Below the pieces are notes generated by a model. It was given only the letters and a program-made list of their open reading frames with translations, searched no databases and was not told the DNA's origin. A stretch of DNA of 64,000 nt from a virus, in IMG/VR virus record IMGVR_UViG_3300030616_000016, positions 167,648 through 231,647 of that record; one strand, 5' to 3'. Made by a program: the position numbers and the translations under genes. Position 1 is the first letter of the stretch, and every line of letters starts with the position of its first letter. Positions 9,029 to 44,070 of this stretch are shown in pieces.

Positions 9029-9793
9029 ATGGGAGAATTATGCGAGGCCTATCTAGGTCCAGAATATCTTCCAGGTCCTCTTATATCGGGTGAATATTTA
9101 AAAGGTGAGGTGGCAGAAGATCCAATTTTGTCACCTCATCTTGCACCTTATATCGCCGCTCTATTAAAGAAGTACGACGATATATTTCATGTTAAGTATA
9201 ATGATCAGGATTTTATAATCCGGCCATTGACTTCAAATGAATATAAGATACTGTGTAAGCTTAGGTTATACTTCGATCCTCAATTAGGGTTCGAAAAGAC
9301 AAGGCCTAGGTTTAGTGTTGTAAGCCTAGAAGATATATTTATAGACTGTATTCTTTATCCTGAGAATGTACTTGATATGGATTTAGATGCATATGTTGTT
9401 GATATGCTTATAGAGACTGCAATACAATATTCGGGATGGGATTCACAGGAGGATATATTTGTAACAAAAGCTCAAATGCAAGCTCATGTAACATCAGATC
9501 TATTAGAGGGCATGTTTACATTTATTAGACGAGCACACCCAGGTCTTGGTGATCGCGATCTTGAAAACAAGAATATTATTGATATAATGAAGTTAATAGC
9601 AAGTGCTGAATTGATATTGGATAAGCCATTCGAGATAGTCACCAAAGATGATAAATCAGATGCTTCTAAAATATCAACCGAAGTTATGATCAAAGAAGAC
9701 TTGGCAGGTCTTAATAAGCTTAATATGCAAGGCTTAAATAAGCCGGAGCTAGAATATGCCCGTAACGCCCAGAGAAGAACAGGAAAGAAGTAG
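9029..9793 (+). CDS. tail assembly chaperone-like protein B
   Basis: This 254-aa protein starts 9 bases after the previous gene in the same reading frame, behind GAGGATATAA. Residues 55-115 carry DQDFIIRPLTSNEYKILCKL and EDIFIDCILYP, the same core as chaperone-like protein A. A helical C-terminal half follows with Lys/Asp-rich segments. Two stop codons separate the genes, so a longer product could arise only by readthrough, for which I see no signal. The last 38 bases overlap the giant gene that follows, suggesting coupled translation. The role as tape-measure chaperone is inferred from the core motif and gene order. Confidence 0.62.
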   Translation: MGELCEAYLGPEYLPGPLISGEYLKGEVAEDPILSPHLAPYIAALLKKYDDIFHVKYNDQDFIIRPLTSNEYKILCKLRLYFDPQLGFEKTRPRFSVVSLEDIFIDCILYPENVLDMDLDAYVVDMLIETAIQYSGWDSQEDIFVTKAQMQAHVTSDLLEGMFTFIRRAHPGLGDRDLENKNIIDIMKLIASAELILDKPFEIVTKDDKSDASKISTEVMIKEDLAGLNKLNMQGLNKPELEYARNAQRRTGKK

Positions 9794-12700
9794 TGGATGG
9801 CTTGGTTATGGCGCGGGATCATTAGCTGTTCTAGCTGGCGCATATATGCTTGGGAAGAATCCAAAGACGCTATACGCAATGGGCGAAACTTTGGACACCG
9901 CAGTATCAGCTATATCAGATGTAACCACCTTTGGTAAGCAACACATAGTAGAAAATCTTAGTAGAATCACTGGCAAGTTCGGTTCTTCCATAGAGACAGC
10001 TGCCAGAAGCCCTTCATCTACAAAAGCACTTAATCCAGAAATATTCAATTCCCTGCAAGGCGCTCTAAGCGCCTGGGAATCTGGCGCCGCAACTACACAG
10101 ACACTTAGAGACGCTCTTGCTGCCAAGTTCTCTAACGTAACGACGGTTAGACCGGGTGTACGTAATCTTCAAGTAAAAGAGATAACACAAGCATTCAGTG
10201 ATATCACTCCTGACGACCCTTTCACTTTATTTGGAAGATCTATAGATAAGAAGGGCGCTGGTCTTCTTAAACAGGCTCAAGAGATAGGAATTGTAGACAA
10301 AGACTGGGTTGCTGACAAAGGCATGTTTATTGATGGTCAGAGATTGGTTGACGCCAATATATTCAGGCCTGAGAAGTGGGGAGAATCTCTTGTAAAAACA
10401 TTACGTGGTGCTACTGGCGGATTCCTTACCGACTCATTACTGCCAAGTACCCATCTTCTTCGAGAGATTCCAGATATAGCTGAGATCTCAACAAAAGGGT
10501 TGGGCAAGCATATAAAAGAGGGAACACTAGATAAAGCCTTTAAGATTGGCGATCAACTTGTTGGTATAACAAAAGATAATTTTGTTGTTGACTTGCCTAA
10601 GCTTCGTGTTGGCCCAGTAGGAAATGCTATTTCTAAGGCACACGCTATAAGAAAGGGGCTTGTAAGACATAGAACAGTTGATGAGATGAAGGAGCTTCTC
10701 GCTTCCAGGGGGCAAGATCTTAATCCGCGTCAAGAAAAGCTATATAGAGCATTAGAAAATAGATTCCTTAGCGAGTATGTTGGCATTGGTCCTCAATACG
10801 CAAGTGAAACGGCGCTTCCAAAGATGCTGCATGGCTGGCTGGCAAAGTTCTACCAGACGGACCTTAAGCCAATATCGATGATTCCAGGCAAGTCATTCGA
10901 TGAGGTATGGGAAAATCTAAGCATTGGTCAAAGAGTCAAGGTTATGGCCAAAGGAGATGTTGATAGCGTCGCCTGGGCCAGAACTTCGATTGCTGGCGAT
11001 CAAGACATTCGATCTTTTGAACAGATACAAGAGATAAAAAGAGCTATCCATGGAGAAAGCTGGGAAGCTGCGCTGGATCCGAGTGGTGAAATATCTAAAA
11101 CAACATCGGTGTTTGGAAGAAGATCAGTAACCAATGCAGAGCAGTTTATGGCAGAAATGCTTGATGAAGAATTCAAGCACACTATGTCACACAACTACTA
11201 TGCCTATGATACTGCTGAACTTGCTGGTAACTGGGCACATACTGTCTTCACGACTCCATTTAGAATAGCATCCAACATGTTTGGATTTGGACTCAAGCAT
11301 GACTCGTTAGGAAAGACTGCGCTCAGAGCCACGGTTGGCATTCCTATGGCCGGATATCTCGCATGGCAGGGAGCAAACTATTTAGATTTTCTTACTGAGC
11401 AGACAACGACATTTAGTCCAATCAAAGGTGTTGCCAGAACATATGCAGAAGCTCAGATAGCCAAACAAAGCATGGCTAATCTTATAGGCATATCATATGC
11501 ATCTAAAACAGCAGAAAGTATGATTGGAATAGATATCGATTCTCCTATTTCCGTTGCGCTTAGAAGCATAGGACTGCCTATACTTGGAGCTAAGATTGGA
11601 CAAAAGATAAATCCTGGAATGGGACGACCTGGTATGTATGTCGGTATTGGGCTAGCCGCGCTTACTTTATCAGACGACCTATCTAGAGATGCAGATGAAT
11701 TAAGAGATATATATGAAGGAAGAAAAGAAGTTCCTGTTAGAAAGTCTCGCTGGTGGATGCTTGGATGTTTTGACCCTCACCAAAGCGTAATGCTTGAAGA
11801 TGGAAGCCTTGTCCATGCAGAAGATGTAGACAGTGGAATGGTAGTCATTAACGATATAGGAGAATATACAGAGGTGACTAATGTCTCTGTAAGAATTACC
11901 GATAAAGACGAGGAGCTAATTTCTATTCTGCCTCATGGATTTCCTTATCCAACAAAAATAACAGGCAATCATGAAGTTCTTGTCCACAGACGTCCTTGTA
12001 TCAAGCCATATACATATAAAACTGGATGTCATCCAAGACGAATCACGAATAGTTCGTGTAGATCTTGTCCGAATGCCTCGCCGGATCTTAATCTGTCATA
12101 TGTCAGAGCCGATGAGCTGAGGCCGGACGACTTTCTTATTCTGCCTAGGCTAAAATGCAACACCTCTATTGGGCTTATCGACCTGTCTGATTACCATGAT
12201 CTATTTGTCATCGATAAAGAAAAAATAGCAGCAGGTCAAAGATTGCATGGTGGTGTTCGGCGTGCTCCAAAAAGCAAATATACTAATAGAATTATACATC
12301 CCGATAAAGATCTCGGTATGCTTTTAGGTTGGGTTTTAGCAGAAGGAAGTAAGCATAGCGACAACTCTATTGAATGTGTGTATAATATTAGTGAAAGCGA
12401 TTTTGCCTTGCAAATGGGTAAAATAGCGCATGCCAAGTTTGGAGCTAGTTATAGCCTATCTGAAAGAGATGGTAGTACTGGGAGAATTGTTATAGGTAGT
12501 AAATTTTTACTCGGTTTTTGTACCAGTGTTGGCATACTGCCAAATAAAACTCCGAACATACGCAGAATGCTAGATTATGGTGAGTGTTTTGTTAAAGGGT
12601 TTGTCATAGGTGCTGTATATGGAGATGGAAGCTATACCGACGGCCATTGGAGATTCAAGGCGAAAAGACTACAGACATGTATTTTCTTGAGAGATATGAT

Positions 12701-15194
12701 CCATGCAGTCGGAGGAGCTGCTTCTATATGTCGAAACTCGTCTATGCTTGAAGGCAAGAGGTTTGATGCGTATTCAGTCACAATAATAGAATTAGATTTT
12801 GCTCTTATTAAGCATTATTATAAAGGAATACCAAAAACCAAGCAGTTAAAATCTGCAATTGGCTGTAAAGACTATGTTTTATATACAATCAGAAGCATAG
12901 TCGCCTCCGATCCTCCTGAAATTGTTTATGACTTCCATGTTAGAGACAGGAATAGCATCTGTTTGCCTGGGCATGTTGTTCACAACTCAGATCCCTTTGA
13001 AGGTGGAGACACTGATTATTACAGGCCTCACCTTATAGCCACAATGCTTTCTGATACCTCTGCCATGGAAGCAAAGTATGGTTCCAAGTCCGCATATTGG
13101 TCTCATGGCACAATGTTCCCTACGCCTCATAATGTATTTGGCTTGAGTATACTGGCTGACCCATACTATGTAGAAAGAAAGCATTACTATGATAGGCCGT
13201 ATCCAATAACAGGAAGATCTAATCTTGCAGAATTTCCTATCTGGGGCAACATACTTGATGCTACTCTTGGAGAGGTTATTAAGCCTACCAAGGTAATGCA
13301 TGAAAATGAACTGGCGCATTATATAACTCAAACCCCTGAGTTCTCTGGAGACAAAGGACTGCAGAGTGTAGCTCAGCAGCTGTCTCTAGCACAAATTAGG
13401 CCTGGTAAGGTGCTGCCAAGAGTAGAAGGAACGCAGGATGACATTGGTCATGCAATATATGACATGACTGAATTTGCTGGATTAAAGGGATTTCTATTTA
13501 CGTCTCTCAAGAAGCAAGTCACTGGAAGCCCTGACTTCTCTGACCAAGGCGCAAGATGGGCTAGTGCAGATGATATTTATAATAAATCTGATGCATACTA
13601 TGATCTACAGCTTGGTGGTATGCTAGGTGCAACCGAGTTCTTCAGAAGATTTTTACCACATAGACAAAACCAAATAGACTATGTTAATCCTCTAAGCAAT
13701 GAAGCTCCGGCATGGCTCCCTGGTAAAAGGTCTGTTTTTGGCGATACAGACTTTATAGATTTCCATAGCTCAGATCCATACACTCGTATCAAGGAGGGGT
13801 CTAAGCGTCTTCCAGGTGCTCAGTATGAAGCTATACACGAACTACATTCTGGTAAAAAAGGCGAATATGATGCTTTTGATAGAATGAAGATATTGGCTGA
13901 TGTCAGCCCATATTCTAATGCCTTCAAGTACTATAAGAACATAGTGGATAAGATGGCTCAGGACGGCCAGCTAGACGGCTATTGGATGGATGAATACCTT
14001 GAAATAGACAGGAGAATTAAAGGAGAAGGACTGCCCGACTTTGAAGCAGAGACAGCAAGTAAAGAGCTTGGTATTTCTGGTGCAGCTGCTGGGACTGCTG
14101 GCCTACTAAATAATCACCTTAGAATACCATGGGTAGGTACTAAGTTAATGAGCATGGATCAAGATCCGCTGGTAGACTATCAAGAGAAGATTTCATTCAA
14201 TAATGACTTCAATGATTGGACTAAACCAATAGACACTATGTTGATGCCATACATGCGCGCACAAAGTGCAAGAGGAGCTATCTCTGGAGCTTTTGGTGGT
14301 GCAACACTAGGTGTTCTTAGCTCAGCTGCTGGAGGTTCATACGCCGGTACTGTAGGAGCTATCGGAGCAGGCGTTGGAACAGTGATGGGATTGGCCGGCG
14401 TTAATGCTCCTGAAAATGAAATCAGAAGAAGGTCTATGGAAGAATACTTCGATAGCTTAGAATATCTGAAGTACAATAAACTAGCTGACAAGGCTGGCGA
14501 ACAAGGCAATATTGCTCTTGCAAATAGATTAAGAAGAATGTCTAAGAGAACCATGGTAGGACTCGACTATTCTCAAGACACAACCTCTTTCTATAAAGCA
14601 GCTTACAGCGCTCTCCCAAAACCGGACAGGCAGTATCTGCAGGCTTTTATCCAGGTTGATCCGGGTAAAAGACCTGAAGTCCTTGACAAAGTTCCAGATT
14701 ATATGCAGCCTATTCTTATGCGTCTATGGAAAGATCCAAAGTCCGAAGCTGATGCCGGCAAGCTATCAAGAGTAGACCAAAACAATAGAGCCCATCAGGC
14801 TGCTTTATCGTATGTAAACAGTCACGGCGGCGTCCCAGATGATGATTCTATGGTATGGCATCCAGATATTAGCATTGAAGATGTCAAACTAAAGACCATT
14901 AAAAATCTTGGTGCTGACATACATAACTTTGGGTTTTGGGGAACTGATGAGCGAGATCTTGAAAGAACGCGGCCTTATATCAAACCCCTTCCATTCTCAT
15001 ATAATACAAACACTTACCAATCTAATAGGTTGAATTTTACTAATAATATGTTACAATATGGTTTTAGCAATGTGTATGTTGATTTGATAAGAAATCCTAG
15101 CAGGCAGCCAGAAAATGTATATTCAATTAATATTCAGAGAAATAGACTTGGTGACATTGCAGGGTTTGACAGCAGGTCTGAGGGAAGGTTCTAA
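9756..15194 (+). CDS. giant tail protein (tape-measure region) interrupted by an intein
   Basis: The precursor has 1812 aa; removal of the 407-aa intein at residues 671-1077 leaves 1405 aa. The start at 9756 has CCGGAG upstream and overlaps the chaperone gene. A probable membrane segment lies at about 14-32 and further hydrophobic stretches at about 520-545, 600-640 and near 1510-1550 (Gly/Ala-rich), as in tape-measure and DNA-delivery proteins. The splice site joins RKSRWWMLG to SDPFEGGDTDYYRPH, and DPYTRIKEGSKRLPGAQYEA occurs further on; I recall related motifs in uncharacterised large-phage tail proteins. Placement right after the chaperones supports a tape-measure or internal tail role. 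It ends in EGRF and its stop overlaps the next start (TAATG). Confidence 0.75.
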   Translation: MPVTPREEQERSSGWLGYGAGSLAVLAGAYMLGKNPKTLYAMGETLDTAVSAISDVTTFGKQHIVENLSRITGKFGSSIETAARSPSSTKALNPEIFNSLQGALSAWESGAATTQTLRDALAAKFSNVTTVRPGVRNLQVKEITQAFSDITPDDPFTLFGRSIDKKGAGLLKQAQEIGIVDKDWVADKGMFIDGQRLVDANIFRPEKWGESLVKTLRGATGGFLTDSLLPSTHLLREIPDIAEISTKGLGKHIKEGTLDKAFKIGDQLVGITKDNFVVDLPKLRVGPVGNAISKAHAIRKGLVRHRTVDEMKELLASRGQDLNPRQEKLYRALENRFLSEYVGIGPQYASETALPKMLHGWLAKFYQTDLKPISMIPGKSFDEVWENLSIGQRVKVMAKGDVDSVAWARTSIAGDQDIRSFEQIQEIKRAIHGESWEAALDPSGEISKTTSVFGRRSVTNAEQFMAEMLDEEFKHTMSHNYYAYDTAELAGNWAHTVFTTPFRIASNMFGFGLKHDSLGKTALRATVGIPMAGYLAWQGANYLDFLTEQTTTFSPIKGVARTYAEAQIAKQSMANLIGISYASKTAESMIGIDIDSPISVALRSIGLPILGAKIGQKINPGMGRPGMYVGIGLAALTLSDDLSRDADELRDIYEGRKEVPVRKSRWWMLGCFDPHQSVMLEDGSLVHAEDVDSGMVVINDIGEYTEVTNVSVRITDKDEELISILPHGFPYPTKITGNHEVLVHRRPCIKPYTYKTGCHPRRITNSSCRSCPNASPDLNLSYVRADELRPDDFLILPRLKCNTSIGLIDLSDYHDLFVIDKEKIAAGQRLHGGVRRAPKSKYTNRIIHPDKDLGMLLGWVLAEGSKHSDNSIECVYNISESDFALQMGKIAHAKFGASYSLSERDGSTGRIVIGSKFLLGFCTSVGILPNKTPNIRRMLDYGECFVKGFVIGAVYGDGSYTDGHWRFKAKRLQTCIFLRDMIHAVGGAASICRNSSMLEGKRFDAYSVTIIELDFALIKHYYKGIPKTKQLKSAIGCKDYVLYTIRSIVASDPPEIVYDFHVRDRNSICLPGHVVHNSDPFEGGDTDYYRPHLIATMLSDTSAMEAKYGSKSAYWSHGTMFPTPHNVFGLSILADPYYVERKHYYDRPYPITGRSNLAEFPIWGNILDATLGEVIKPTKVMHENELAHYITQTPEFSGDKGLQSVAQQLSLAQIRPGKVLPRVEGTQDDIGHAIYDMTEFAGLKGFLFTSLKKQVTGSPDFSDQGARWASADDIYNKSDAYYDLQLGGMLGATEFFRRFLPHRQNQIDYVNPLSNEAPAWLPGKRSVFGDTDFIDFHSSDPYTRIKEGSKRLPGAQYEAIHELHSGKKGEYDAFDRMKILADVSPYSNAFKYYKNIVDKMAQDGQLDGYWMDEYLEIDRRIKGEGLPDFEAETASKELGISGAAAGTAGLLNNHLRIPWVGTKLMSMDQDPLVDYQEKISFNNDFNDWTKPIDTMLMPYMRAQSARGAISGAFGGATLGVLSSAAGGSYAGTVGAIGAGVGTVMGLAGVNAPENEIRRRSMEEYFDSLEYLKYNKLADKAGEQGNIALANRLRRMSKRTMVGLDYSQDTTSFYKAAYSALPKPDRQYLQAFIQVDPGKRPEVLDKVPDYMQPILMRLWKDPKSEADAGKLSRVDQNNRAHQAALSYVNSHGGVPDDDSMVWHPDISIEDVKLKTIKNLGADIHNFGFWGTDERDLERTRPYIKPLPFSYNTNTYQSNRLNFTNNMLQYGFSNVYVDLIRNPSRQPENVYSINIQRNRLGDIAGFDSRSEGRF
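11766..12986 (+). mobile_element. intein with LAGLIDADG homing endonuclease, 407 aa
   Basis: The element runs from Cys671 to Asn1077 of the host protein. It has all splicing landmarks: CFDPHQSVMLEDGS at the N-terminus (block A), TGNH at 736-739 (block B), VYDFHVRDRNSI before the end (block F), and GHVVHN followed by Ser1078 as the first C-extein residue (block G). The two endonuclease motifs are LGMLLGWVLAEGS (853-865) and VKGFVIGAVYGDGS (946-959), with the acidic residues E863 and D957 expected to bind metal. Four cysteines at 748, 758, 768 and 771 may form a small zinc site. Both splicing and homing look intact. The insertion keeps the host frame. Confidence 0.95.
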
Positions 15195-18100
15195 TGCCTG
15201 ACAAGCCAGAACAAAGAAGTGGATCAGTAGCGCCTTGGTTGGTTGGCGGAGGGCTATTAGCTTTTGGTGGGTATCAGGGATATAAGCACTTCGGCCAGAA
15301 GCACTTAGGAAATATGGCAAATAATCTAGGCGATGAGATTAAAGCTGTTGTGCCATCAGTAGAACAAACCGAACAAATAATCAAACCAAGTTCTTCCACA
15401 GAATTCTGGCATAAGTTTGACAGAGCAGGAACTCCTGCAGCTGGCATTGGAGCCACAAATTCATTTATGCATGATATAGTTGATGTCGAAGATGCACACT
15501 ATAAAGGATTCGATGAGATTTTAACTCCTAAGAGAGCTGCTGCTTATAACAAAATTGTGACAGCTCAGCTTACCGACTTTCAGTCTGTTATGAATAATAC
15601 ACACGGAACCAATCTTCTTAATATAGAAGCAATCAACGAGTCTATAAATAGTGCAAATACTGGTTTTATTGATGGCATCAGCGAAAGAGCAAAGAGAAAT
15701 ACAGAAACAGCTGGCTTAATAGGAAGGTCTGATGTAGAAGATATATTTTTTGCTCATTATGGAAGAAAGGGTAAAAGAGCTCAAGAGTTCATTGCAAGAG
15801 AGCAGGCTGCTGTATCACAACTGGAAGATATAGCAAGCCGGCTTACAGCATCAACTGGGCATCAAGTTAAAATACAGGCCATTAACCGCAGCGGTGTAGC
15901 TCCAGAAATAGGGCTCAGAGTAGGTGGCGAGTTTATTTCTATGGGCGCCGCCACTGGAACAAGGCTTCAGTTTGGTTCAAATGTATATCAGGGGCCTCAA
16001 GCCATTCTTGGCAGAACAGCTGAAGGCAGGCTAAAGACCATGACCTTTCATGAAGCTTCTGTAAATGTTCTTGAACAAAAAATGGGCGAGCTAAAAGGCA
16101 TCAAGTCTTCAAGTCAGCTTAGATCCAAGATATCCGGTATATTATCCGAGCCTAGAGAGGCCGCAATCTTTTCTAGTCCTGAAGATAAGATGAGAGCTAT
16201 AGCTGGTGTTCCTGGACAACCTATGAGCGCTGCCGATGTCGCTAGAAGTGGTAACATTGTAACTATGCCGAGTATAGTTAAAGAATCAGGCGCACAAGCT
16301 TCAAGAGATGCTGCTGAAACTCTTAGAAGAATAACTGAATGGGCAGGCAAAGAGGATTGGGACGAGACTACTCGCGCAAGAATGTTTCATATAAAACCTG
16401 GACAAAGGATTACTCCAGAGCGCGTGCTAAGGCATTTCGTTACAGCTGTTAAAGGAGATAAGGTAGACAGACTGACTTTCTCTGCTTTTACTTCTTTGAA
16501 AGCTCTTACGGTTGGAGGGATGCTCACTCCGTTTCAAAACATAGCCAAGGAAGGCGGCGAGGAACTACGCACAGGATTGCTTAGAAAATCTCAATCCGCC
16601 AAATATAAATATAATAAGTATTATGGCTATGGAAGGGAAATGAGACGGCAGAATCTTGCTGGGCTTCTTGCAGGTGAGGGTTCTGAGCGTTTGGCTGGAA
16701 GCGTAAGTGGCAAGGTTCATGCTATAGATAAAGTTCAGAAATTAATTGATGGTGAATGGGTAGACGTTCCAGACAAACTAGTTGGCGCGTTAGGTGGTAA
16801 ATTTTCAGGTGGTTCTGGTGTTATGGCTATTAGTGAGGAATTCGGCGATTTATCTCACGAGTCATCTGGAGATTATATGCTCAAAAAGATAAGCGGCTCT
16901 CCTAACAAGAAAATCAAAGATACAATTAATGAACTTGCAAGAAAGGGCAAGCTAGATGTAAGGAATCTAAAAGCAGCGGGTATTACAGTTCGCAAAAAAG
17001 ATGCTCAGGGGCTATTGCGAACTGAAACAGGAAGCCTGGAATTTAGCCAGGCTGCTTTAAAGCAAGCAAGCGAGACAGAAAACTCTCTGGTTATACCCGG
17101 TAAAAGACTTAGAAAAATAAGTGAATCTGGCTATGCTTTTAGGCTTGGGCCTACTAGTGTTTCAGCTACAAGAGGTACTCGATTTATAGGCAAAGGCTCA
17201 GAGGGAGTTCTTGGTGCTTTGTGGTCAACGAATATTAAACCGGAAGTAAGATCTCAAATGGCTTATGCCACAATACAGAGCCTAATGGAAGAATCAGATA
17301 TCAAATATTCTCGCAATTTAGACGAGTTTGCAGCTACTATATCTGGTGAACTAGATAGAGCCGATCCTAATGCCAGATATTTTAAAGGCGTAGAAGGCAA
17401 TCAAAAAAGATGGCAGCAGCTTACAGATCTAATGACTGAAAGAATGCAGAAAGAAGGAGTAGATAAACGTAGCCTGGATAAGTTTAGAGCATCTATGGAA
17501 GGATATGGTCCTGGTAAGACCATAGAATTTGCTGCTGAGGGTCAACACTACAGAGCTAGAGCTACGACACTAACTGGTACTGCGTTTCCTAGAATGTATC
17601 CTCTTGAAGAGGAGACAGCATTGCATGGTACAGTAGGCAGATATAAATCTGAGTATACAAAGAAGCTGGATGATTTTAATAAAGCATTGGCTGGACATGA
17701 GGACCTTCCTGGTGTTCAAAGATTCATGGAAGCTCAAACAAAGAAACATAGTATTCTTGAAGATGTTTTACGCCACGAATCTGTGCCAGATACACTGATA
17801 AGAAACTTCAATGAAGCTGAAACTCAACAGCTAGAGGCCATAAGAGAAATACAAAGAATGGAAGGCGGTCCAATAAAAGGCATAGAGAAGAAGTTTATTG
17901 CACTCAAAACAAGCGAAGAACAGTTTATGTCCAAGCTTACACAGAGAGCGCAAAGTACTCCACGCAGATATAGACCACAAGACTTTATGATGATGGCTAT
18001 AAAAGCTCATGCTGACCCTGAAAACAGAGACACAGGTGTGCTTGAGTATCTGCTTCGCATGCAGGAAGGTAGCCAGGCTCGCCGCAGCTTTCAAAACGTG

Positions 18101-20698
18101 GCTATGGCAGCTGAGCCTTTATTTGGAACAAGTACCAAACAGATTATTGAAGAAGTAGACAAGGGTATTCTATTTGGCAACAAGGCCTTTAGTTTATCAA
18201 ATCCTGATGACGTCGAACAGCTTAAAGTTATTACCAATGTCATGGGTCAGATTAAAGATGCGGCAGATTCTGCAGACGACGAAGTTGTCAATGCCATGTC
18301 CATACAAGACATTCTTAGAAGATCTAAAGGCCAATTTGAAGCTGCTGGATTAGGAGATGTTAATCCAGAAGAGCTTCTAAGTAAAAATCTTGCTATTACA
18401 GGAATGCCAGAAGGCACGTTCATGGATCTGGAAATTGAACAGGCTCTTAAAACAGGTACTGATAAGTTTCTTGTTTCTTCAAAGAATCAAAGAGAAATGA
18501 TACTTCCATCTCTTGGAGCAACAGGAAGGCTGTTTGGCAAAGGTCCTAATGCTGAAATGATATCTTTGAATGAAATGCGCAGGTCTATACTTGGTGCACA
18601 CCATGGGCTGTCTCTTATGTTAGAAGACGGAGAAAACATAGACGCTCTCAGATCCTCATATGCTACATTTCTTAAATCGCTTGCAGAGGAAAGCCATAAA
18701 ACCGGTTTGTTTGGTAGAGCAGGCGAATTGCAGTGGACTAAAAGCGCGTATCCAAACATCAGACAGTTTGATTTCTCAGATATGAGAAGAATGGATTATC
18801 TTCGTCAGGCTAAGGATTGGGCTGGATACCAGGCAGAAGCTGCTACTGTTCATATAAGCAGAGAAATGGCTGAAGAGTTTGGTGCGCTCGACAAGCTTAC
18901 CAAAAAGGGCGCCGATGATCTTTATGCTCATATGCAGTCTTATCCCGGCCTTACTCCTGGAATGCAGAGGACGGTTAAGCTTAGACTAGATGAAAACCTC
19001 AGAGGCAGGCAAATGAAGGTTGGATATGGAATTGCAATAGCCGGAGCCAGAGACTTTGATGCTGACCGTGTTGCTTTGATGTATCTAGGTGATGAGCATG
19101 AAGTTGTTAGAAATCTTTTGAACAACGATCCTAATTTATCCAAAAGCGATGCCAAGGCTATGGCTCGTAAATTTGTTTCTAGCATGAAGCAAGATTTTAG
19201 AGCAGATGCAGAGTCTATAGCATATCTACAACATTCTGAGATGAAGCTTGCACAGCGCGTTGCAGACGCAAACTTTTTATCAGCAACAAACAAGTTACAT
19301 AAAGATGCTAATGTTAATGCTGTTAGAGATATCGTCAATTATATGGGAAGGATTGATGATGTAGAAATTAAGTCTGGTGCTTACGACGATGAGATTCAGC
19401 GAATTCTATCTAAGCACGATATATCTGGTACAGCCGCAGATACGATGATCGACGTATTTAAAAAGAAGCTTGTAGCATCTAAAGAACTTGGTGTAACTAC
19501 AAACAAGCTTATGATGATGCGTAATACTCTTGCCGATAATATGATTAGAGACAAAGGAAGCAGGCAAGCTACTGATTTCGCGATACAATACTTTCATCAA
19601 ATAACACAGTCTCTTATTAGCGCTAGAAAGCATGGAGAAAAAGGTGATGCTTCTAGAGAATTAATCGAACTTCTGCAAGGTAGATCTGTTGATGGTGATT
19701 TCAAGAACCTTACAAGAGCACACAAGGATAAAATAGGCGAGCTGTTAGGAGAATCTCTTGTTGAAGGCGGTCTTGCTGGAGAGGTAAAAGACAGATGGTT
19801 GTGGAGAAGTGTTGATGAAGGCGTGTATGATTCTAACCAAGTTAAGTGGATAATAGATGAGCAAGCACAAAAGCTAAACGTAAAATCATTCAATGAATTA
19901 AAAGAAACCTTTGTTAACTTGGCAGAAGAAAATCTTAGAAGAAGAAATGAATGGGACGAGTCTAATTTCTTGTTTGAAACAACCATGAAGAAGTCTGGGC
20001 TTGGTAGATTTGCAGAGAGAGGTCAATGGTCTGTTAGACAGTTTATTGAACAGGCTCCTAAGCATATGAAGAAGCTTGGTGCCTTTGTTAAGAAGCAAGC
20101 AGATCTTCCTGAGTTTGCTCGTCTTGTTTCTCATATAACTGGAATCAATGCTATTGCAGCTTATGCTGACGACGCATCAAGGGCTACTATAAGAGAGGCT
20201 GAGAAGACAGCTTCAGATGCTTTAAATTATGCAAAGGCTGGCGATGCAGCTGCTGACATAGCAACTTCCAAAGGTAAATCATGGCTTACCAGACTGTTTG
20301 ATAAGTCAGACGAATACTTGGCTGGATCACCAAAAGCTAAGTACGCACTTGCTGGAGCTGCTATAACAGGTGCTGCTGCCTTCACATTTAGAATGTTTAG
20401 CGACCCGACCATGCCAGCTCCAGAAAGACCTGGTCCAGCCGCTCCGCCTGCTATGCCAATGGATCCAAGACAGCGCGGCATAACTCAATATCAAGGCGCT
20501 CCGCCGGCTCCTGTTTCTCCTTCATATGGCCTTGCAGATAGATTCATATCCTCAGGCTTAAGCGCTGCTCCAGAAATAGCTGTTGCAGAAATGACTAATT
20601 CACTGGACGGGCGTGGTTCTTTTGATATAATGGATCAGAGCCTAAGCGATCCACAATTCCAGGAAGAGTACGAATCGGCTCAGAGAGGTAGGTTTTAA
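15194..20698 (+). CDS. giant tail protein with RNA-polymerase-like motifs (candidate)
   Basis: This 1834-aa protein starts inside the preceding stop (TAATG). A probable membrane segment lies at about 13-30 and another at about 1715-1735, followed by a Pro-rich tail and a C-terminal RGRF. The body is charged and mostly helical. Around residues 1275-1300 it reads YGIAIAGARDFDADRVALMY, where DFDAD (1287-1291) resembles the metal-binding DFDGD of two-barrel RNA polymerases. At 1470-1485 ITQSLISARKHGEKGD resembles a trigger-loop region. This raises the possibility of a virion-carried polymerase-like domain, but no search supports it and other core motifs were not located. A second tape-measure-like or injected internal protein is the conservative reading. 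Confidence 0.6.
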   Translation: MPDKPEQRSGSVAPWLVGGGLLAFGGYQGYKHFGQKHLGNMANNLGDEIKAVVPSVEQTEQIIKPSSSTEFWHKFDRAGTPAAGIGATNSFMHDIVDVEDAHYKGFDEILTPKRAAAYNKIVTAQLTDFQSVMNNTHGTNLLNIEAINESINSANTGFIDGISERAKRNTETAGLIGRSDVEDIFFAHYGRKGKRAQEFIAREQAAVSQLEDIASRLTASTGHQVKIQAINRSGVAPEIGLRVGGEFISMGAATGTRLQFGSNVYQGPQAILGRTAEGRLKTMTFHEASVNVLEQKMGELKGIKSSSQLRSKISGILSEPREAAIFSSPEDKMRAIAGVPGQPMSAADVARSGNIVTMPSIVKESGAQASRDAAETLRRITEWAGKEDWDETTRARMFHIKPGQRITPERVLRHFVTAVKGDKVDRLTFSAFTSLKALTVGGMLTPFQNIAKEGGEELRTGLLRKSQSAKYKYNKYYGYGREMRRQNLAGLLAGEGSERLAGSVSGKVHAIDKVQKLIDGEWVDVPDKLVGALGGKFSGGSGVMAISEEFGDLSHESSGDYMLKKISGSPNKKIKDTINELARKGKLDVRNLKAAGITVRKKDAQGLLRTETGSLEFSQAALKQASETENSLVIPGKRLRKISESGYAFRLGPTSVSATRGTRFIGKGSEGVLGALWSTNIKPEVRSQMAYATIQSLMEESDIKYSRNLDEFAATISGELDRADPNARYFKGVEGNQKRWQQLTDLMTERMQKEGVDKRSLDKFRASMEGYGPGKTIEFAAEGQHYRARATTLTGTAFPRMYPLEEETALHGTVGRYKSEYTKKLDDFNKALAGHEDLPGVQRFMEAQTKKHSILEDVLRHESVPDTLIRNFNEAETQQLEAIREIQRMEGGPIKGIEKKFIALKTSEEQFMSKLTQRAQSTPRRYRPQDFMMMAIKAHADPENRDTGVLEYLLRMQEGSQARRSFQNVAMAAEPLFGTSTKQIIEEVDKGILFGNKAFSLSNPDDVEQLKVITNVMGQIKDAADSADDEVVNAMSIQDILRRSKGQFEAAGLGDVNPEELLSKNLAITGMPEGTFMDLEIEQALKTGTDKFLVSSKNQREMILPSLGATGRLFGKGPNAEMISLNEMRRSILGAHHGLSLMLEDGENIDALRSSYATFLKSLAEESHKTGLFGRAGELQWTKSAYPNIRQFDFSDMRRMDYLRQAKDWAGYQAEAATVHISREMAEEFGALDKLTKKGADDLYAHMQSYPGLTPGMQRTVKLRLDENLRGRQMKVGYGIAIAGARDFDADRVALMYLGDEHEVVRNLLNNDPNLSKSDAKAMARKFVSSMKQDFRADAESIAYLQHSEMKLAQRVADANFLSATNKLHKDANVNAVRDIVNYMGRIDDVEIKSGAYDDEIQRILSKHDISGTAADTMIDVFKKKLVASKELGVTTNKLMMMRNTLADNMIRDKGSRQATDFAIQYFHQITQSLISARKHGEKGDASRELIELLQGRSVDGDFKNLTRAHKDKIGELLGESLVEGGLAGEVKDRWLWRSVDEGVYDSNQVKWIIDEQAQKLNVKSFNELKETFVNLAEENLRRRNEWDESNFLFETTMKKSGLGRFAERGQWSVRQFIEQAPKHMKKLGAFVKKQADLPEFARLVSHITGINAIAAYADDASRATIREAEKTASDALNYAKAGDAAADIATSKGKSWLTRLFDKSDEYLAGSPKAKYALAGAAITGAAAFTFRMFSDPTMPAPERPGPAAPPAMPMDPRQRGITQYQGAPPAPVSPSYGLADRFISSGLSAAPEIAVAEMTNSLDGRGSFDIMDQSLSDPQFQEEYESAQRGRF

Positions 20699-23600
20699 TG
20701 AATAAAAATATTAAAATAGGTCCAGTACAATTAAGTGTTGACGCTGATAGCTTTTCTATATCAGATAGAAAGGTTAATACAATGGTGCCTGGTCTTCGAA
20801 GTAATATACCAAAGGTCATCAATACAGGAAAGAGCAGGCTCGAATATTCCTTCAGTGCTATATTCGCAAACGAAGAAGAGATCAACACAAAGCTAAGACC
20901 TATTATTGCCTATTTCAAAGCAGTTCCTTTTATTACTGTAAAATCAGATGTATTGAATAAGCTTCTTGCAACTCGTCTTGTATCAAAAGCTGTTGCGAAT
21001 CAAAGCAGCTCCTATGATAAGCTAGGTTCTAATTTTATACAGAATAAACTTATCAGCGATCTTCGTAATGCAATATACGAACATCTTTTAGATCCTATTG
21101 TTAAGAGCTACATGAATTTGACTGTTATAGATAAAACTATAATAGATCAGTTTATAAAAGAAAAACTTGGTGTGTCATTGGATGATATAAATCGACCAGC
21201 TCTAAGAACTCTTGTGTCAAGATATGTAGAGCTAAATTACTATGTGTCTAAGGCCACAATCCCTATCAAGGGTGGATCTAACGAACAGCAGATACGTGAA
21301 TTAAGAAAGCATATAAGAGAAAAACTCGCTGGCCAGCTAAAAGAAAGAGATGTTATAGACAGAGCAAAAACTGCTGGTATAGTACAGGTTGCTGATGCCT
21401 CTGATGTATATGATGGTGACACTTTTGTTGTTAGTGGAACAACATATCGTTTATTTGGCGTAGATGCATTTGAAACAGTAAGACCAGGAACTCAGCTTGG
21501 TCCAGGTCAAGAAAAGAAACCTGAGAAATCATACGCAGCTTCCGCTAAATCCTTTCTTGTAGACAGACTTGTTGGTCAGAACTTTACTCTATCTGAAGTT
21601 GGAACTAGAACATATAATCGTGTTTTAGGAATATGCGAATCCGTATCTCCAAGCCATGGAGAGAATGCTAATGTTGGTTTAGAGATGGTTAGCCAAGGCA
21701 TAGCGCTTCCATCTGGCGTTGCAAGTATGGGTAGATATGCAACTATAGAAAGCTTGCCATATCTCAAAGCTGCTAAAACTGCTGCAGAATCTGGGTTGGG
21801 GATATGGAGTCAATCTGAAATTCAAGTGCCAGAGCTTTGGAGAAAGTATGCACAAAATATTAACAACTTTGCTAATCCGTCAAGTCCGACTGTTTTAGAT
21901 TCAGACATACAAGAATTGACAATAAAGCCTGCATCTGTTCTTAAACAGCTTATCGATTCTTTAATTGAAGAGCTTGAGGGTCGTACTCCTAATATAGGTA
22001 TTAACTTTGTTGCATCTGCTCAGCCAATCTTAGATGCATATGAGCAGAGCATTGTATCTGAAGACAAGAAAAAAGAGGACGTAGATAGAGTTTCTGAGTT
22101 TATTGGATTCCCAGAAGATCTTATCCCGTCATGCTTTGCTGGTATTTCATATTCAGCAGTGCACGATTTACCACAGGCCATACAGGCACAGTTTCATTTC
22201 TCAGTGTTCAATCATGCTCCTTATGGTCCTACTTTTGGCTTCAAGTCTGACGTAGTTCAGCAAAACGGAGTTTCAGCGGTAGTATCAGATCCAGACATAA
22301 CATATTCACGTTTAGTGCAAGGCTATGTTAGCAAGGAATTTTTGGAGGAGCCAGCATCCAAACAATACCTAACAGCATACACGCCAGCTAAAGACTTTAC
22401 CATACACTATAATGATGTAGACACGATTGTTAAGAAGACATCAAAAGCTAAATTAAGAGAGTCAGATATTAAGACTAGCGAAAGAGTGCAGAAGTCAAAG
22501 GAAATGTTGAACAAGCGCGAATCTGTTGTGTTCATAGGGAAGCGAATTACTATATCTCCTGATTCTGGTGAGATAGAAATATCAATATTGGAGGATGAAG
22601 AAAAGAAACAGTCAACTGTACATAAGCTTAATAATATACAAATTGAATCTGTAAGCTGCAACATAACAAATAACATTGTCCATTTACCTATTGAAGCTGC
22701 CGCTATTCCAACTGCTCAACACATTGGAAGAGGTATAGGTTCTGTGTCGTTAGAGATTTCTTCTACAGATGAGAACTCTATGGCTGTTTTTAGAACTCTT
22801 GAGCATGCTATTCAAAATGCAATGCATATATCCAATCAGTATGGAGCTCCTACTTCTTTCAGAATAACTAATCCAACAATTAATTTGTCTGGAGCCAAAG
22901 ACTTTGTTTTCGATAATATAGTTGTTAGCAATGACAGATCAGCTCCAGGTAAGTATAATATGAGGATTAATCTGGTCGAAAGCTTTAATGCCGAGGAAGA
23001 CACAGAAGAGAAATTGATACCTAAGATTGATTTTGATTTCAAGGATGGCTCTGGTGTCGCAAAGAAAGTAGTAGAGGCATTAAAAGAACACGCTGGTAGT
23101 CCATTTTATGACAAGTTTATGTCTACTTTCTTCCCGATGACAAAGCCTAGTAGGTCTGTTTCTTCTGATATAGAAGAGTATGTAAATACATATCCTCTTA
23201 TGCTTCTATTTGCTCACACCCATAAAGACACGCCAAATCCGGTTCTTTTGGATGCATACGGAGAAAATATAGGATTTATAGAAAGCTTTTCTAATATTGT
23301 AAATAGAGTTAAATATGACAACATAACTCCCAAAGCTGTTAATATGAGAGACAATCTCATTGAAAGATTGTATCAAATTGATCGCGCATGGTTCGTAGAT
23401 ATAGCTAGCTCTCTTCCAATAAACATAAGCACTGCAATAAATGAAAGAAATCCTTTTAGCACAGCGTCTTCAGTACAAGATGATGTAAGAAAGTTTAGCA
23501 ACCAGTCAATAGTATTTGACAAGGATAATTATAATCCAAGCTATTTGATAAAAGGAGGTAAGTGGGTCATTGGCCCATGGGGTAAAGGACCAGGCGCTAC

Positions 23601-26600
23601 TGCAGGATCAACAGATGCCATGTTAAATCGCAGAGACTACTTTTTGCAGTTCTTATCTACAAAAGATTTTACCAAAAAGTATTTGTTAAACTTATCACAA
23701 GGTTGTTTTAGTGCTGCATATTATTTCAGAAATCTTTTTGAAGATGAATTAGATAGCAACGAGCAAGCTAAGAAAGCCTTTTATAATTGCATCTCATTTC
23801 TTCTTAGCGAAGCTCTAGAATCTAGTCCTAATTTTGAAGGCTTCTTTGGTGCTTGGATTACAAGACAGGTAGGCCTTTATTCTGAAGACCTAGATAGAAG
23901 TCTTTTGCCCACAAGACAAGAGCCAACTACATTTAATGATCTTAATCTACCTACATATAGAGATGTATTTGGCAAAACAGACTCAGTAGTAATTGAAGAA
24001 AGAAAGAAGTTGATTTCTGACTTGCGTGCTATTAGCATTTATATTCCAGAGATATCATACAATGTAGATACTATATCTAGTCCGTATCAATTTTATTCCG
24101 ACATTGTTACTCAGTATCATGTTGGCAAGAGTAATATTGGCCTTCATATGATTAGCGGTTCTAATTTATATAGATCCCAAGACAAGGCTCTCGATAATGT
24201 ATATGACACTGCAGTAGAAATTTACTCAAAAGAAACTGAGACGATGAAATCTAGGCTGCCTGTTTCTGATGCAGTACTTCCAAGAAATAAAGAGTTTTGG
24301 TCGCGTTTAGACCCAAATGCAATAGCTCGTTCTCCAGATGATGTCGTTGAGCCTGGGTGGATGTATGATCTTCAGTGGGAAGATGTGTCTGATACGGCAT
24401 CTGTTACAATGAACCATCTTAAAAAGGTGCATTCTAATAATGTTAACAAGATATCGCCAATAACAACTAATGACTTAGAAGACAATGACATACTTAACAA
24501 CTATGAAGATCTAACTGTAGGCGATAATTACATAGAAAAGATAAAAGAAGTATCTAGTAAAAAAAGAATGTTCAAAGGGTCGCAAATAGGCGATATTAAC
24601 TTTGCTGAAGTTCCTTTACAGTCTATATCTTCTGTTGATAAGTCTAAAAAGAAGTATCCGTCAAGCGGGACAAGTACTACGACTAACTTGCCTGGTAGTT
24701 TTTCTACTGACTCTATCGATACTGATAGACATACTAACAGATTAACAAGAGATAGATATAAAGACGACAAGATATCTTCTATTAGAAAAGCTTATCCAGG
24801 ATACGCGATATATTTTCTTGAAGAGGATGCAGAGGACTGGGGTTATCTTGATGATTATTACAGGTACGACTCAGTTATATCTTGGGACGTTGTACAATCC
24901 AAAAAAGATATAGACACTGCAGTAGTTAAATTTACTAACTTTAAGGGCGTGTTAAGCAATCAGTCTCCAAACAAAGATCGCCTAAAAGATGAAGTTGTTA
25001 GTGCAACTGAAACTGTTGATGAAAGTATTTCTGAGCCAGTGGATCCTAACTCTGCTTATGAGGGAGACCTAAGTGGTCTAGAAGGGCTGTTAACAGCCTT
25101 TAAGCTTAGACAAGGAACTAGAATTATTATCAAGTCTGGATTTACAACTAAGATTTCTGAGATGGAGACTATATTTACCGGACAAGTGGTCGAAGTATCC
25201 CCTGGAGATATCATCACTGTTATTTGTCAAGGATATGGATCTCAGCTTATGTCTTCCATGAATAAAGAGTTTATGTGGGATGATCATAACTTCCCAGAAA
25301 TATTATCAACGGTTCTTTATGACACAACTTACTTTGGCAAATGGGAGAGATTTGTTGATAGGCTTCCTGGTCAAAGTAAAATGTATAGCGGAACCGTAGG
25401 ATCAATTATTTCTCACAAGCTTATAGGCGATTATTTTCCTAGCACCGCTGATGATAATATATATAGAATAGCAAAACCTCACGATAATTTCTTTAAGTGG
25501 ATGTGGGATTGGGCGTGGGGAACAAATTGGCAAATTCGAGGACCTATTTGGTCTAATATATTGACAATGACAAGATATGTGCCAAATACGATACTAACAA
25601 TTCGTCCTTACGATGGACGAGCTACGCTGATATGGAATGATTATGATGGCTACTATATTGACACTAACCACATAAGCAGTCTTAGTTCTCAAATCGGCCA
25701 TGCTGCCTCGGATTATTTGCTAAGGTCTGGTCTTAAACAAAACGACAACCAGACCAAATCAGAAATGCTTGGTGAGATTTTATCCAATGATATTTTTACA
25801 TCTAATGGATCATCTAGTCCGTATATGAGAAGCGAACAAAGGCTAAGCGATGCCAGGTCAAATTTATACAACCACGGCATATATGATTTTAATGATAAAA
25901 TAGACTTGATTAATGAGGAGCTGATATTAACCATTTTGTCTGATTGGTTCATGGATAAGTTTCTTAAAAATATAATAATTAGTAGTGAAGAGCTATTTTC
26001 AAATCATGTAGTTAAGCTAAGAATGGATTCTACCGTACCAATCTCTATTGAACCTATTCTGAAGACCATGGAAAGACCTAGTCAAAAATATAGCGAAGCT
26101 GTGCCATTTTCTCCGCTTTCTAAGCCTACTGGAAATAGAAAAGTCGAAAGCAAGTTTTATGTGTCTGATGTTAGCGGAAATATTGCAAGGGGTATTATTC
26201 CCATAGCATACTTACTACCAGAAAACGTAAATATTGCTAAAGACAGAGACAATATAAGAATAGATCAAATTAAAAAAATAGTTAGTGCTGTAGTTAGATA
26301 TGCAGAGAATCATCCTGGCATAGGTATCAATATCAAAGACGGCAAAACTATGGATGCTATTATGCAGTCTTTAGATATGGAGAATATCATACCTGGATAC
26401 TTGGCTATGTATGATAGTCGTAATTTCTTAGCTGCATTTGAAATATATCTTCCAATTAGTCGCGAGGTTGTATCGCAGATATTATCGTATTTACTTCCTG
26501 CGATATATGGATCTGTAGACTATGTCAGCAGGAATCCCGGCACATTTTTATCTGACGTAAACAATAGCGCAGATAAACTAAAAGATCCGTATGTACCTCC

Positions 26601-27549
26601 TAATATGAGACCTATAGTCGAAACACACTCTGCGGTTAGTGGTGTAAATATCATTAAAAACAATATTAGAGCTACAATGTCTGAGTCGGCCAATACTGTT
26701 TCTCTCACTAAAGAGGACTCTAATAGTACTATGGAGCTTTCAGTTTCTCCTGGTTTAACAACCAAGCTTGCCAAGTCAATTGTAGACATAAACTGTGAAG
26801 ATGTTCAGGTGAGAACTCAGGCAATATTTGGTGCCCTACAAGAAGAAATGCAGAAAATGTATAGAGGTCTTCTTATTTTATCTGGCAATCCAAGAATTAA
26901 ACCTTATCATTATATTAGAGTAGACGATTATTATAATAGTATGTTTGGATCTATAGAGGTAGATAAGGTTATTCATTCTTTCAATCATAAGAGCGGATTT
27001 ACATCTTCTATTGTTCCTCATATGATTGTTAGAGCCAGAACAGATCGTGGTTATTATGCTGCTATGATGGCAAATGCCGAGGCTGGTTTTAAGACTATGC
27101 TTGGTTTAGGAGCAGCGTTGGCTCTAGCTATAGGTACGTTTGGCATTGGATGGATTGGAATTATAGCTGGTGTTGGCATAGGTATAGGCACTGGAATAAC
27201 AACTAGTAAGTTTCTAGGTCCTGGAGCAGGTCAGCCAGGATGGTTTCTTGGTATACCATACCCCACGTTTTCTGGCCAGGGCTTATTTGATAAATCTAGG
27301 CTCAATCCTGTCAAAATAGCTCCGCTTATATACAAGGGTGCGCCGTATGTTGTTGGGCTTGAGGGATGGGACAATAAACAATGGACATATTCAGAATATA
27401 AACGAGAGCTTATGCGACTATATGAAGCCGGATGGGACAAATTTCATTCGCAAATCTCAGACGCTAAGAACGCTTTGTGGGATGCTGCTGGTGAAGCATA
27501 TCAGGCAGGCCATCATACCGCAGAACATATTTGGTGGAATAGGAGGTAG
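20698..27549 (+). CDS. giant baseplate hub-like protein with SNase nuclease domain
   Basis: This is a 2283-aa protein starting at TAATG. Residues about 226-372 form a staphylococcal-nuclease-like domain with DGDT at 239-242, R251, D256, E259 and R308 in the positions of the known catalytic and calcium-binding residues, ending in GLGIWS. Further on, LNNIQIESVSCNITNNI near 642 and the region 1473-1515 (RIIIKSGFTTKISEMETIF, then a TGQVVEVSPGDIITVICQG strand pair) resemble the gpD/gp27 hub fold. A long Gly-rich hydrophobic segment lies at about 2134-2168. Position between the tape-measure-like genes and the gp25-like wedge gene fits a hub at the tail tip, which would place a nuclease at the point of entry. 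Confidence 0.72.
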   Translation: MNKNIKIGPVQLSVDADSFSISDRKVNTMVPGLRSNIPKVINTGKSRLEYSFSAIFANEEEINTKLRPIIAYFKAVPFITVKSDVLNKLLATRLVSKAVANQSSSYDKLGSNFIQNKLISDLRNAIYEHLLDPIVKSYMNLTVIDKTIIDQFIKEKLGVSLDDINRPALRTLVSRYVELNYYVSKATIPIKGGSNEQQIRELRKHIREKLAGQLKERDVIDRAKTAGIVQVADASDVYDGDTFVVSGTTYRLFGVDAFETVRPGTQLGPGQEKKPEKSYAASAKSFLVDRLVGQNFTLSEVGTRTYNRVLGICESVSPSHGENANVGLEMVSQGIALPSGVASMGRYATIESLPYLKAAKTAAESGLGIWSQSEIQVPELWRKYAQNINNFANPSSPTVLDSDIQELTIKPASVLKQLIDSLIEELEGRTPNIGINFVASAQPILDAYEQSIVSEDKKKEDVDRVSEFIGFPEDLIPSCFAGISYSAVHDLPQAIQAQFHFSVFNHAPYGPTFGFKSDVVQQNGVSAVVSDPDITYSRLVQGYVSKEFLEEPASKQYLTAYTPAKDFTIHYNDVDTIVKKTSKAKLRESDIKTSERVQKSKEMLNKRESVVFIGKRITISPDSGEIEISILEDEEKKQSTVHKLNNIQIESVSCNITNNIVHLPIEAAAIPTAQHIGRGIGSVSLEISSTDENSMAVFRTLEHAIQNAMHISNQYGAPTSFRITNPTINLSGAKDFVFDNIVVSNDRSAPGKYNMRINLVESFNAEEDTEEKLIPKIDFDFKDGSGVAKKVVEALKEHAGSPFYDKFMSTFFPMTKPSRSVSSDIEEYVNTYPLMLLFAHTHKDTPNPVLLDAYGENIGFIESFSNIVNRVKYDNITPKAVNMRDNLIERLYQIDRAWFVDIASSLPINISTAINERNPFSTASSVQDDVRKFSNQSIVFDKDNYNPSYLIKGGKWVIGPWGKGPGATAGSTDAMLNRRDYFLQFLSTKDFTKKYLLNLSQGCFSAAYYFRNLFEDELDSNEQAKKAFYNCISFLLSEALESSPNFEGFFGAWITRQVGLYSEDLDRSLLPTRQEPTTFNDLNLPTYRDVFGKTDSVVIEERKKLISDLRAISIYIPEISYNVDTISSPYQFYSDIVTQYHVGKSNIGLHMISGSNLYRSQDKALDNVYDTAVEIYSKETETMKSRLPVSDAVLPRNKEFWSRLDPNAIARSPDDVVEPGWMYDLQWEDVSDTASVTMNHLKKVHSNNVNKISPITTNDLEDNDILNNYEDLTVGDNYIEKIKEVSSKKRMFKGSQIGDINFAEVPLQSISSVDKSKKKYPSSGTSTTTNLPGSFSTDSIDTDRHTNRLTRDRYKDDKISSIRKAYPGYAIYFLEEDAEDWGYLDDYYRYDSVISWDVVQSKKDIDTAVVKFTNFKGVLSNQSPNKDRLKDEVVSATETVDESISEPVDPNSAYEGDLSGLEGLLTAFKLRQGTRIIIKSGFTTKISEMETIFTGQVVEVSPGDIITVICQGYGSQLMSSMNKEFMWDDHNFPEILSTVLYDTTYFGKWERFVDRLPGQSKMYSGTVGSIISHKLIGDYFPSTADDNIYRIAKPHDNFFKWMWDWAWGTNWQIRGPIWSNILTMTRYVPNTILTIRPYDGRATLIWNDYDGYYIDTNHISSLSSQIGHAASDYLLRSGLKQNDNQTKSEMLGEILSNDIFTSNGSSSPYMRSEQRLSDARSNLYNHGIYDFNDKIDLINEELILTILSDWFMDKFLKNIIISSEELFSNHVVKLRMDSTVPISIEPILKTMERPSQKYSEAVPFSPLSKPTGNRKVESKFYVSDVSGNIARGIIPIAYLLPENVNIAKDRDNIRIDQIKKIVSAVVRYAENHPGIGINIKDGKTMDAIMQSLDMENIIPGYLAMYDSRNFLAAFEIYLPISREVVSQILSYLLPAIYGSVDYVSRNPGTFLSDVNNSADKLKDPYVPPNMRPIVETHSAVSGVNIIKNNIRATMSESANTVSLTKEDSNSTMELSVSPGLTTKLAKSIVDINCEDVQVRTQAIFGALQEEMQKMYRGLLILSGNPRIKPYHYIRVDDYYNSMFGSIEVDKVIHSFNHKSGFTSSIVPHMIVRARTDRGYYAAMMANAEAGFKTMLGLGAALALAIGTFGIGWIGIIAGVGIGIGTGITTSKFLGPGAGQPGWFLGIPYPTFSGQGLFDKSRLNPVKIAPLIYKGAPYVVGLEGWDNKQWTYSEYKRELMRLYEAGWDKFHSQISDAKNALWDAAGEAYQAGHHTAEHIWWNRR

Positions 27550-44068: not shown

Positions 44069-44070
44069 TT

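Follow-up and report, generated by a model that had tools for sequence, protein, structure and literature searches.

The DNA analysed here, called the window in the following, comprises 64,000 nucleotides (positions 167,648 to 231,647 of the IMG/VR virus record IMGVR_UViG_3300030616_000016) and forms the last 64 kb of this 231,647-bp record. At 15194..20698 on its plus strand, where all features of this paragraph lie, an open reading frame (ORF) encodes a giant tail protein of 1834 amino acids, which occupies a tape-measure slot and is proposed, on the basis of the reading frame, the slot, a family profile and the predicted fold, to be a single-chain two-barrel virion RNA polymerase (RNAP). 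An earlier note on this DNA had pointed to a DFDAD motif at residues 1287–1291 and to a second motif downstream of it, and had compared both to two-barrel RNAPs. DFDAD, the proposed magnesium-binding aspartate triad, was found at exactly this position (19052..19066), the ORF reading YGIAIAGARDFDADRVALMY around it, and the second motif, ITQSLISARKHGEKGD, was confirmed to start at residue 1470, 185 residues past DFDAD. It forms a trigger-loop-like block, Q1472-xx-I1475-xxx-K1479/H1480 (19601..19648), which is defined by family columns. A bridge-helix-like segment is suggested around LGVTTNKLMMMRNTLADNMIR (residues 1431–1452, 19484..19549) by a conserved block ahead of the trigger loop in the relatives. 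The second double-psi barrel (barrel B, beta-prime-like) was assigned to residues 1213–1330 (18830..19183) from model confidence, Foldseek and the family profile, and includes S1249-Y-P1251 (18938..18946), which the alignment identifies as the counterpart of the beta-prime 'NRxPT' motif. A probable first double-psi barrel (barrel A) was placed at residues 790–850 (17561..17743) by aligned lysines, the region being weak in the window protein and modelled with low confidence. A Kyte-Doolittle scan added an N-terminal hydrophobic segment, possibly a membrane or tail-lumen anchor (residues 9–27, 15218..15274), and a C-terminal hydrophobic helix (residues 1718–1736, 20345..20401); a segment comparable to the former is present in most family members and the helix in essentially all.

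A DxDxD motif on its own is weak evidence and proves little, because 30% of 5000 shuffles of the 1834-aa protein contain one, the stricter pattern [GAVILMFR]D[FYLK]D[AG]D occurring in 0.6% of 5000 shuffles; it is conservation that raises the motif above chance. No close relative of the protein was found in the phage collection. Its upstream partner, an 1812-aa giant tail protein, served as bait to retrieve first 14 and then 80 virus contigs, and bacterial genome contigs scanned with the same partner gene yielded no relatives. The first large gene past the partner encodes, in one clade, a protein of 1388–2345 aa with a late DxDxD and an [R/K]xP motif before it. The combination [R/K]xP ... DxDxD is carried by some 30 distinct proteins of the same slot, which come from virus contigs, the cultured phages KLEB27-3 and ME3, and plasmid-prophages of Bacillus and Paenibacillus. 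The closest relative, on contig L028, shows 28% identity across the whole protein (E=1e-155) and has kept DFDAD. Further members were retrieved independently through a scan with the trigger-loop pattern; in those from L103–L106 and L112 the slot gene lies between the homolog of the 1812-aa gene and the hub gene.

Twenty-three same-slot proteins were aligned across about 1100 residues, with a mean column identity of 19%. The only invariant columns are Pro1251 and Asp1287, Asp1289, and Asp1291. All three aspartates, the conservation of which the earlier note had proposed to check, are thus kept in 23 of 23 homologs, an invariance that is partly built in since rows were partly picked for DxDxD. 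Independent of this choice are Pro1251, the trigger-loop block, a comparison with the triad masked, and the retrieval of members by the trigger-loop pattern. Within the trigger-loop block all 23 rows have glutamine or glutamate at column 1472 and isoleucine or leucine at 1475, and 22 have histidine or lysine at 1479. This Q/E-x2-I/L-x3-H/K pattern coincides with ITQSLISARKHGEKGD, the second motif of the earlier note, and its spacing (Q, +3, +7) is that of QYNLGVGH in gp66 of phage phi14:2. In the barrel-A region K823 and K830, which L028 has as well, correspond to two lysines found in 20 of 22 rows, and K851 corresponds to one found in 21 of 22. The arginine of NRxP is present in 19 of the 23 rows; the window protein has serine (S1249) in its place.

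Eight full-length proteins used as a profile against PDB gave a chance match only. A barrel-B profile of 17 rows gave 118 matches to PDB sequences, the best of which was yeast Pol I RPA190 (E=1.2e-6), followed among the matches listed by the non-virion RNAPs of AR9 and PhiKZ; all 60 listed of the 118 were largest subunits or catalytic chains of RNAPs. For a single member, KLEB34, PF00623 was matched across the motif with E=0.015, and AR9 beta-prime was the top PDB match with E=0.26, not significant alone. The window protein together with its L028 relative joined the rest of the family in hhalign with P=1.5e-6, in register on DFDAD, and with P=1.5e-4 at the same place when the triad was masked. 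Controls, which included the partner protein, the hub, the reversed sequence, slot proteins of another clade and L016, ranged from 0.04 to 0.63. A tape-measure or other structural protein that has DxDxD by chance and is not homologous to polymerases would agree with the high frequency of the motif in shuffles and with the lack of a library match for the window protein alone. This explanation is considered very improbable, and was rejected, in view of the family profile, the hhalign comparison with its controls, and the Foldseek results that follow.

The window protein was modelled in part with AlphaFold, at a mean predicted local distance difference test (pLDDT) of 48, with barrel B mostly at 60–84. 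The top 50 PDB matches of this model in Foldseek were exclusively RNAP largest subunits of the beta-prime/Rpb1 type, the best being AR9 non-virion RNAP beta-prime (E=6.6e-4). The model of the relative L034 was more confident (pLDDT 67, predicted template modelling score 0.63, barrel B mostly 85–94), and its top 50 were again all RNAPs, QDE-1 being among them over about 580 columns. The fold check proposed earlier thus led, in the top 50 matches of the window model, to RNAP largest subunits only, and together with the family profile it bears out the supposed resemblance to two-barrel RNAPs. Of the two double-psi barrels that had been envisaged, barrel B is supported and the first is weak in the window model. 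Strands are modelled at the barrel-A lysine region of L034, where the window model is unreliable. The Foldseek template modelling scores were low, so that the arrangement of the protein as a whole, with the first barrel and the clamp, is tentative. A two-barrel DNA polymerase of the PolD type, or another double-psi-barrel enzyme, was also considered, as PolD has the same two-barrel active site (PMC10770324). PolD was absent from both Foldseek top 50s and from the PDB profile matches listed, and a trigger-loop-like Q-xx-I/L-xxx-H block is present; on these grounds this candidate was discarded as the least probable of all those weighed. By computation the 1834-aa protein is a member of the two-barrel RNAP superfamily through its second barrel, its aspartate triad and its slot, and membership of the family as a whole is almost certain. 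For the first barrel and the trigger loop the support is partial.

The gene lies within a tail cluster. Upstream of it are the tail sheath gene (4299–5648), genes at tube positions between the sheath and the 1812-aa giant gene, and the latter itself (9756..15194, plus strand), which bears an intein and is conserved as the partner of the polymerase gene. Downstream follow the gene for a 2283-aa baseplate hub protein (20698..27549, plus strand), the staphylococcal-nuclease domain of which (residues 251–372) also occurs in the BtI1 hub homolog, and further baseplate and fibre genes. Searches with sheath and hub matched only Bacillus phage KLEB27-3, Acinetobacter phage ME3 and Moorella phage MTATph1, which share the order sheath, tube, ..., homolog of the 1812-aa gene, slot gene and hub. 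Genes of ME3 have been deposited as related to 0305phi8-36. In this Bacillus phage orf146, labelled as tape measure protein, adjoins the hub gene orf147, so the window gene fills the tape-measure slot of that lineage; the expectation that a gene in this place would be annotated as tape measure is borne out by the position of orf146. The KLEB27-3 homolog of the 1834-aa protein has been deposited as 'structural protein'.

The 1812-aa partner carries a 407-aa intein (window 11766–12986, residues 671–1077), which has a weak Pfam intein match, starts with CFDPHQSVMLEDGS and ends with VVHN ahead of a serine. The homolog in L028 (54% identical) is free of the intein and has the exact junction WMLG|TDPYEGG. 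Another homolog, in L034 (L034:8402-13282), contains an insertion of about 345 aa (residues ~1196–1540) that sits elsewhere than the window intein, is absent in L103–L106 and L112, and is possibly another intein. A further gene of the record, for an actin-like 'Volactin' (43593–45647, plus strand), is split by an intein that contains a LAGLIDADG endonuclease and ends in PGCCIHN|C.

The slot polymerase protein is also carried by plasmid-prophages of Cytobacillus, Bacillus velezensis, B. licheniformis and Paenibacillus. Four plasmids of these bacteria (L127 from Cytobacillus, L128 from Paenibacillus, L129 from B. licheniformis, and L130 from B. velezensis; 200–240 kb) share the tail gene order of the phage and look like plasmid-prophages. 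The four plasmid-prophage homologs also have the DxDxD triad, and motifs in these members are textbook-like, for example HRNPSINTSTLQ...EDYDGD. The polymerase part is not universal in the slot, because it is lacking in the tail relatives L016 and Moorella MT27 and in a neighbouring clade (L019–L023, L046, L049–L098), where the partner gene is present and no matching polymerase domain was detected in the slot proteins. In this clade the slot proteins are often split over two genes. In the Moorella element (MT27) a transposase gene directly follows the slot gene. An exonuclease-like domain is present in or aligned with the same-slot proteins of Moorella (L013:15513-19442), KLEB27-3 (L011:15004-22308) and B. 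licheniformis (L129:11656-18522), the matches being RNase_T (E=5e-5), phrog_192 (E=5e-11) and RNase_H_2 (E=0.0012); the members from Moorella MTATph1, KLEB27-3 and B. licheniformis may also carry such a domain in the slot protein.

It appears quite likely that this phage has an active, packaged and injected RNAP built into the protein at the tape-measure position. Several observations speak against it. The window protein alone had no library match in Pfam, PHROGs or PDB, and HMMER with the family profile failed to report it at E<=1. Pfam found no RNAP in the four plasmid-prophage members, and the profile similarity to crAss-like RNAPs was P=0.013 in hhalign, covered about 63 columns, and was in register only around the triad. 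The window model has a mean pLDDT of only 48 and lacks the first barrel. The NRxP arginine is replaced by serine, and the trigger-loop histidine and lysine are not kept in L028, the closest relative. The location in the virion we infer from gene position and from the depositor's label of the KLEB27-3 protein. Some of these points would equally suit a decayed or repurposed polymerase, the fold of which lives on in a structural role within the tail while RNA synthesis was lost: the serine, the trigger-loop residues that are not common to L028, a triad that reads DFDAD and not DFDGD, and relatives without the polymerase domain, which is therefore dispensable for the working of the tail. A purely structural role, however, would not lead one to expect three aspartates in 23 of 23 proteins at 19% mean column identity and barrel-A lysines in 20 of 22 rows, and we regard decay as unlikely, albeit as the most serious of the alternatives.

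The protein could also be a genuine RNAP that acts inside the cell after late expression and is neither packaged nor injected. Some phages do make two-barrel RNAPs from non-structural genes, an example being gp99 of 0305phi8-36. In the relatives examined, however, the slot gene is part of the tail cluster, with tail genes on one side and the hub gene on the other, the KLEB27-3 homolog was deposited as a structural protein, and the same genome separately encodes an apparent non-virion pair, all of which leaves this explanation with little probability. The pair consists of a beta-like RNAP gene (104448–106118, minus strand; PF00562, E=2.4e-13) and an adjacent beta-prime-like gene with GADSDGD (106108–107634, minus strand; PDB, E=1.4e-4), which judged by their sequences probably constitute a second, non-virion polymerase. 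A PF00562 search of the records of ten relatives found no beta-like gene. A third candidate is a 763-aa ORF (144041–146332, minus strand) with ERWTSSDCDGDTLTLHV (TSSDCDGD), for which no supporting match was obtained. The T7-like RNA_pol domain (PF00940) of N4-type virion RNAPs had no match in the genome, nor did it have one in the control genomes, so that this negative carries no weight, and a search of the intergenic gaps for a promoter-like motif in the form of repeated 10-mers found none.

If the slot protein is a packaged and active RNAP, it would be assembled in the tail above the hub and, upon tail contraction, be ejected through the hub. Its hydrophobic ends would anchor in the host envelope, and the central domain would transcribe the first phage genes during entry of the DNA. 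One of the products may be the second polymerase (beta and beta-prime, 104448–107634), which would then take over later transcription. Packaging, ejection, activity and such a transcription cascade are what we infer for the 1834-aa protein; by analogy with P23-45 and PhiKZ, it is plausible that an injected polymerase and one made later share out transcription. The roughly thirty related viruses with matching tail proteins probably likewise deliver a finished polymerase along with the DNA.

The nearest precedent, by description, is gp96 of the Thermus phage P23-45, in which a two-barrel RNAP and the tail tape measure protein form one chain (Chaban et al. 2024, PMC10770324); no other tape-measure-fused two-barrel polymerase was found in the open-access literature. 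Compared by description, a two-barrel RNAP bearing a DxDxD triad is, or here is proposed to be, part of a giant protein that fills the tape-measure slot and has hydrophobic segments; each genome codes for a second RNAP, non-virion in P23-45 and probably so here, and in either case the fused RNAP is missing from some relatives. The tail of P23-45 is extremely long, and the gp96 RNAP, clamp-less and flat, is located at the N-terminus (DFDGD at 779–783) of a 5002-aa protein, whereas here the lineage is one of contractile-tail jumbo phages, the triad lies at about 70–80% of the length of 1400–2400-aa proteins, and the second polymerase consists of two genes, beta and beta-prime. The crAss-like virion RNAPs (phi14:2 gp66, crAss001 gp50) are likewise single-chain two-barrel enzymes among giant neighbouring virion proteins, and their motifs YRxPxxGxxS ... 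G[SA]DFDxD and the trigger loop have the same spacing as in the family; their tail genes differ, however, and the proteins are larger. Placement in the crAss-like virion RNAP clade of phi14:2 gp66 was rejected on account of the weak profile match (P=0.013). PhiKZ and AR9, too, are jumbo phages whose RNAPs are akin to those of cells, and their non-virion beta-prime subunits are among the best fold and profile matches; the virion and non-virion RNAPs of this type are split over several beta and beta-prime chains, unlike the single 1834-aa tail polypeptide here. In 0305phi8-36, which belongs to the same lineage, gp146 occupies the same slot as matched by position. It was assigned as tape measure mainly from tail length, and the accessible portion of its description mentions no polymerase. 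The YonO-like RNAP of this phage, gp99, is a separate non-structural gene that had already been reported, and a review of 224 jumbo phages gives only the YonO-like enzyme for 0305phi8-36.

The kind of polymerase is already known, and the family and the lineage appear to be new, as no description of a polymerase in the tail gene of this lineage was found in the open-access literature. The proteins probably represent a widespread, previously undescribed family of tail-located single-chain two-barrel virion RNAPs in the tape-measure slot of 0305phi8-36-like jumbo myoviruses, among them plasmid-prophages in Bacillus, Cytobacillus and Paenibacillus; the family was lost from the slot or never acquired in the neighbouring clade, and in the present phage it would start a cascade via the second, two-gene polymerase. 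Members are directly testable, since two of the phages, ME3 and KLEB27-3, have been isolated and the Bacillus plasmid-prophages reside in cultured strains. If true, tail-fused virion RNAPs would no longer be confined to a single group of Thermus phages and would also occur in a large lineage of contractile-tail jumbo phages that diverged anciently and has cultured members; this would account for the resistance of the gene to annotation and suggest a route by which first genes are expressed without the host polymerase. It also raises the question of how a polymerase moves down the tail tube, and whether tape-measure proteins repeatedly gain enzymes.

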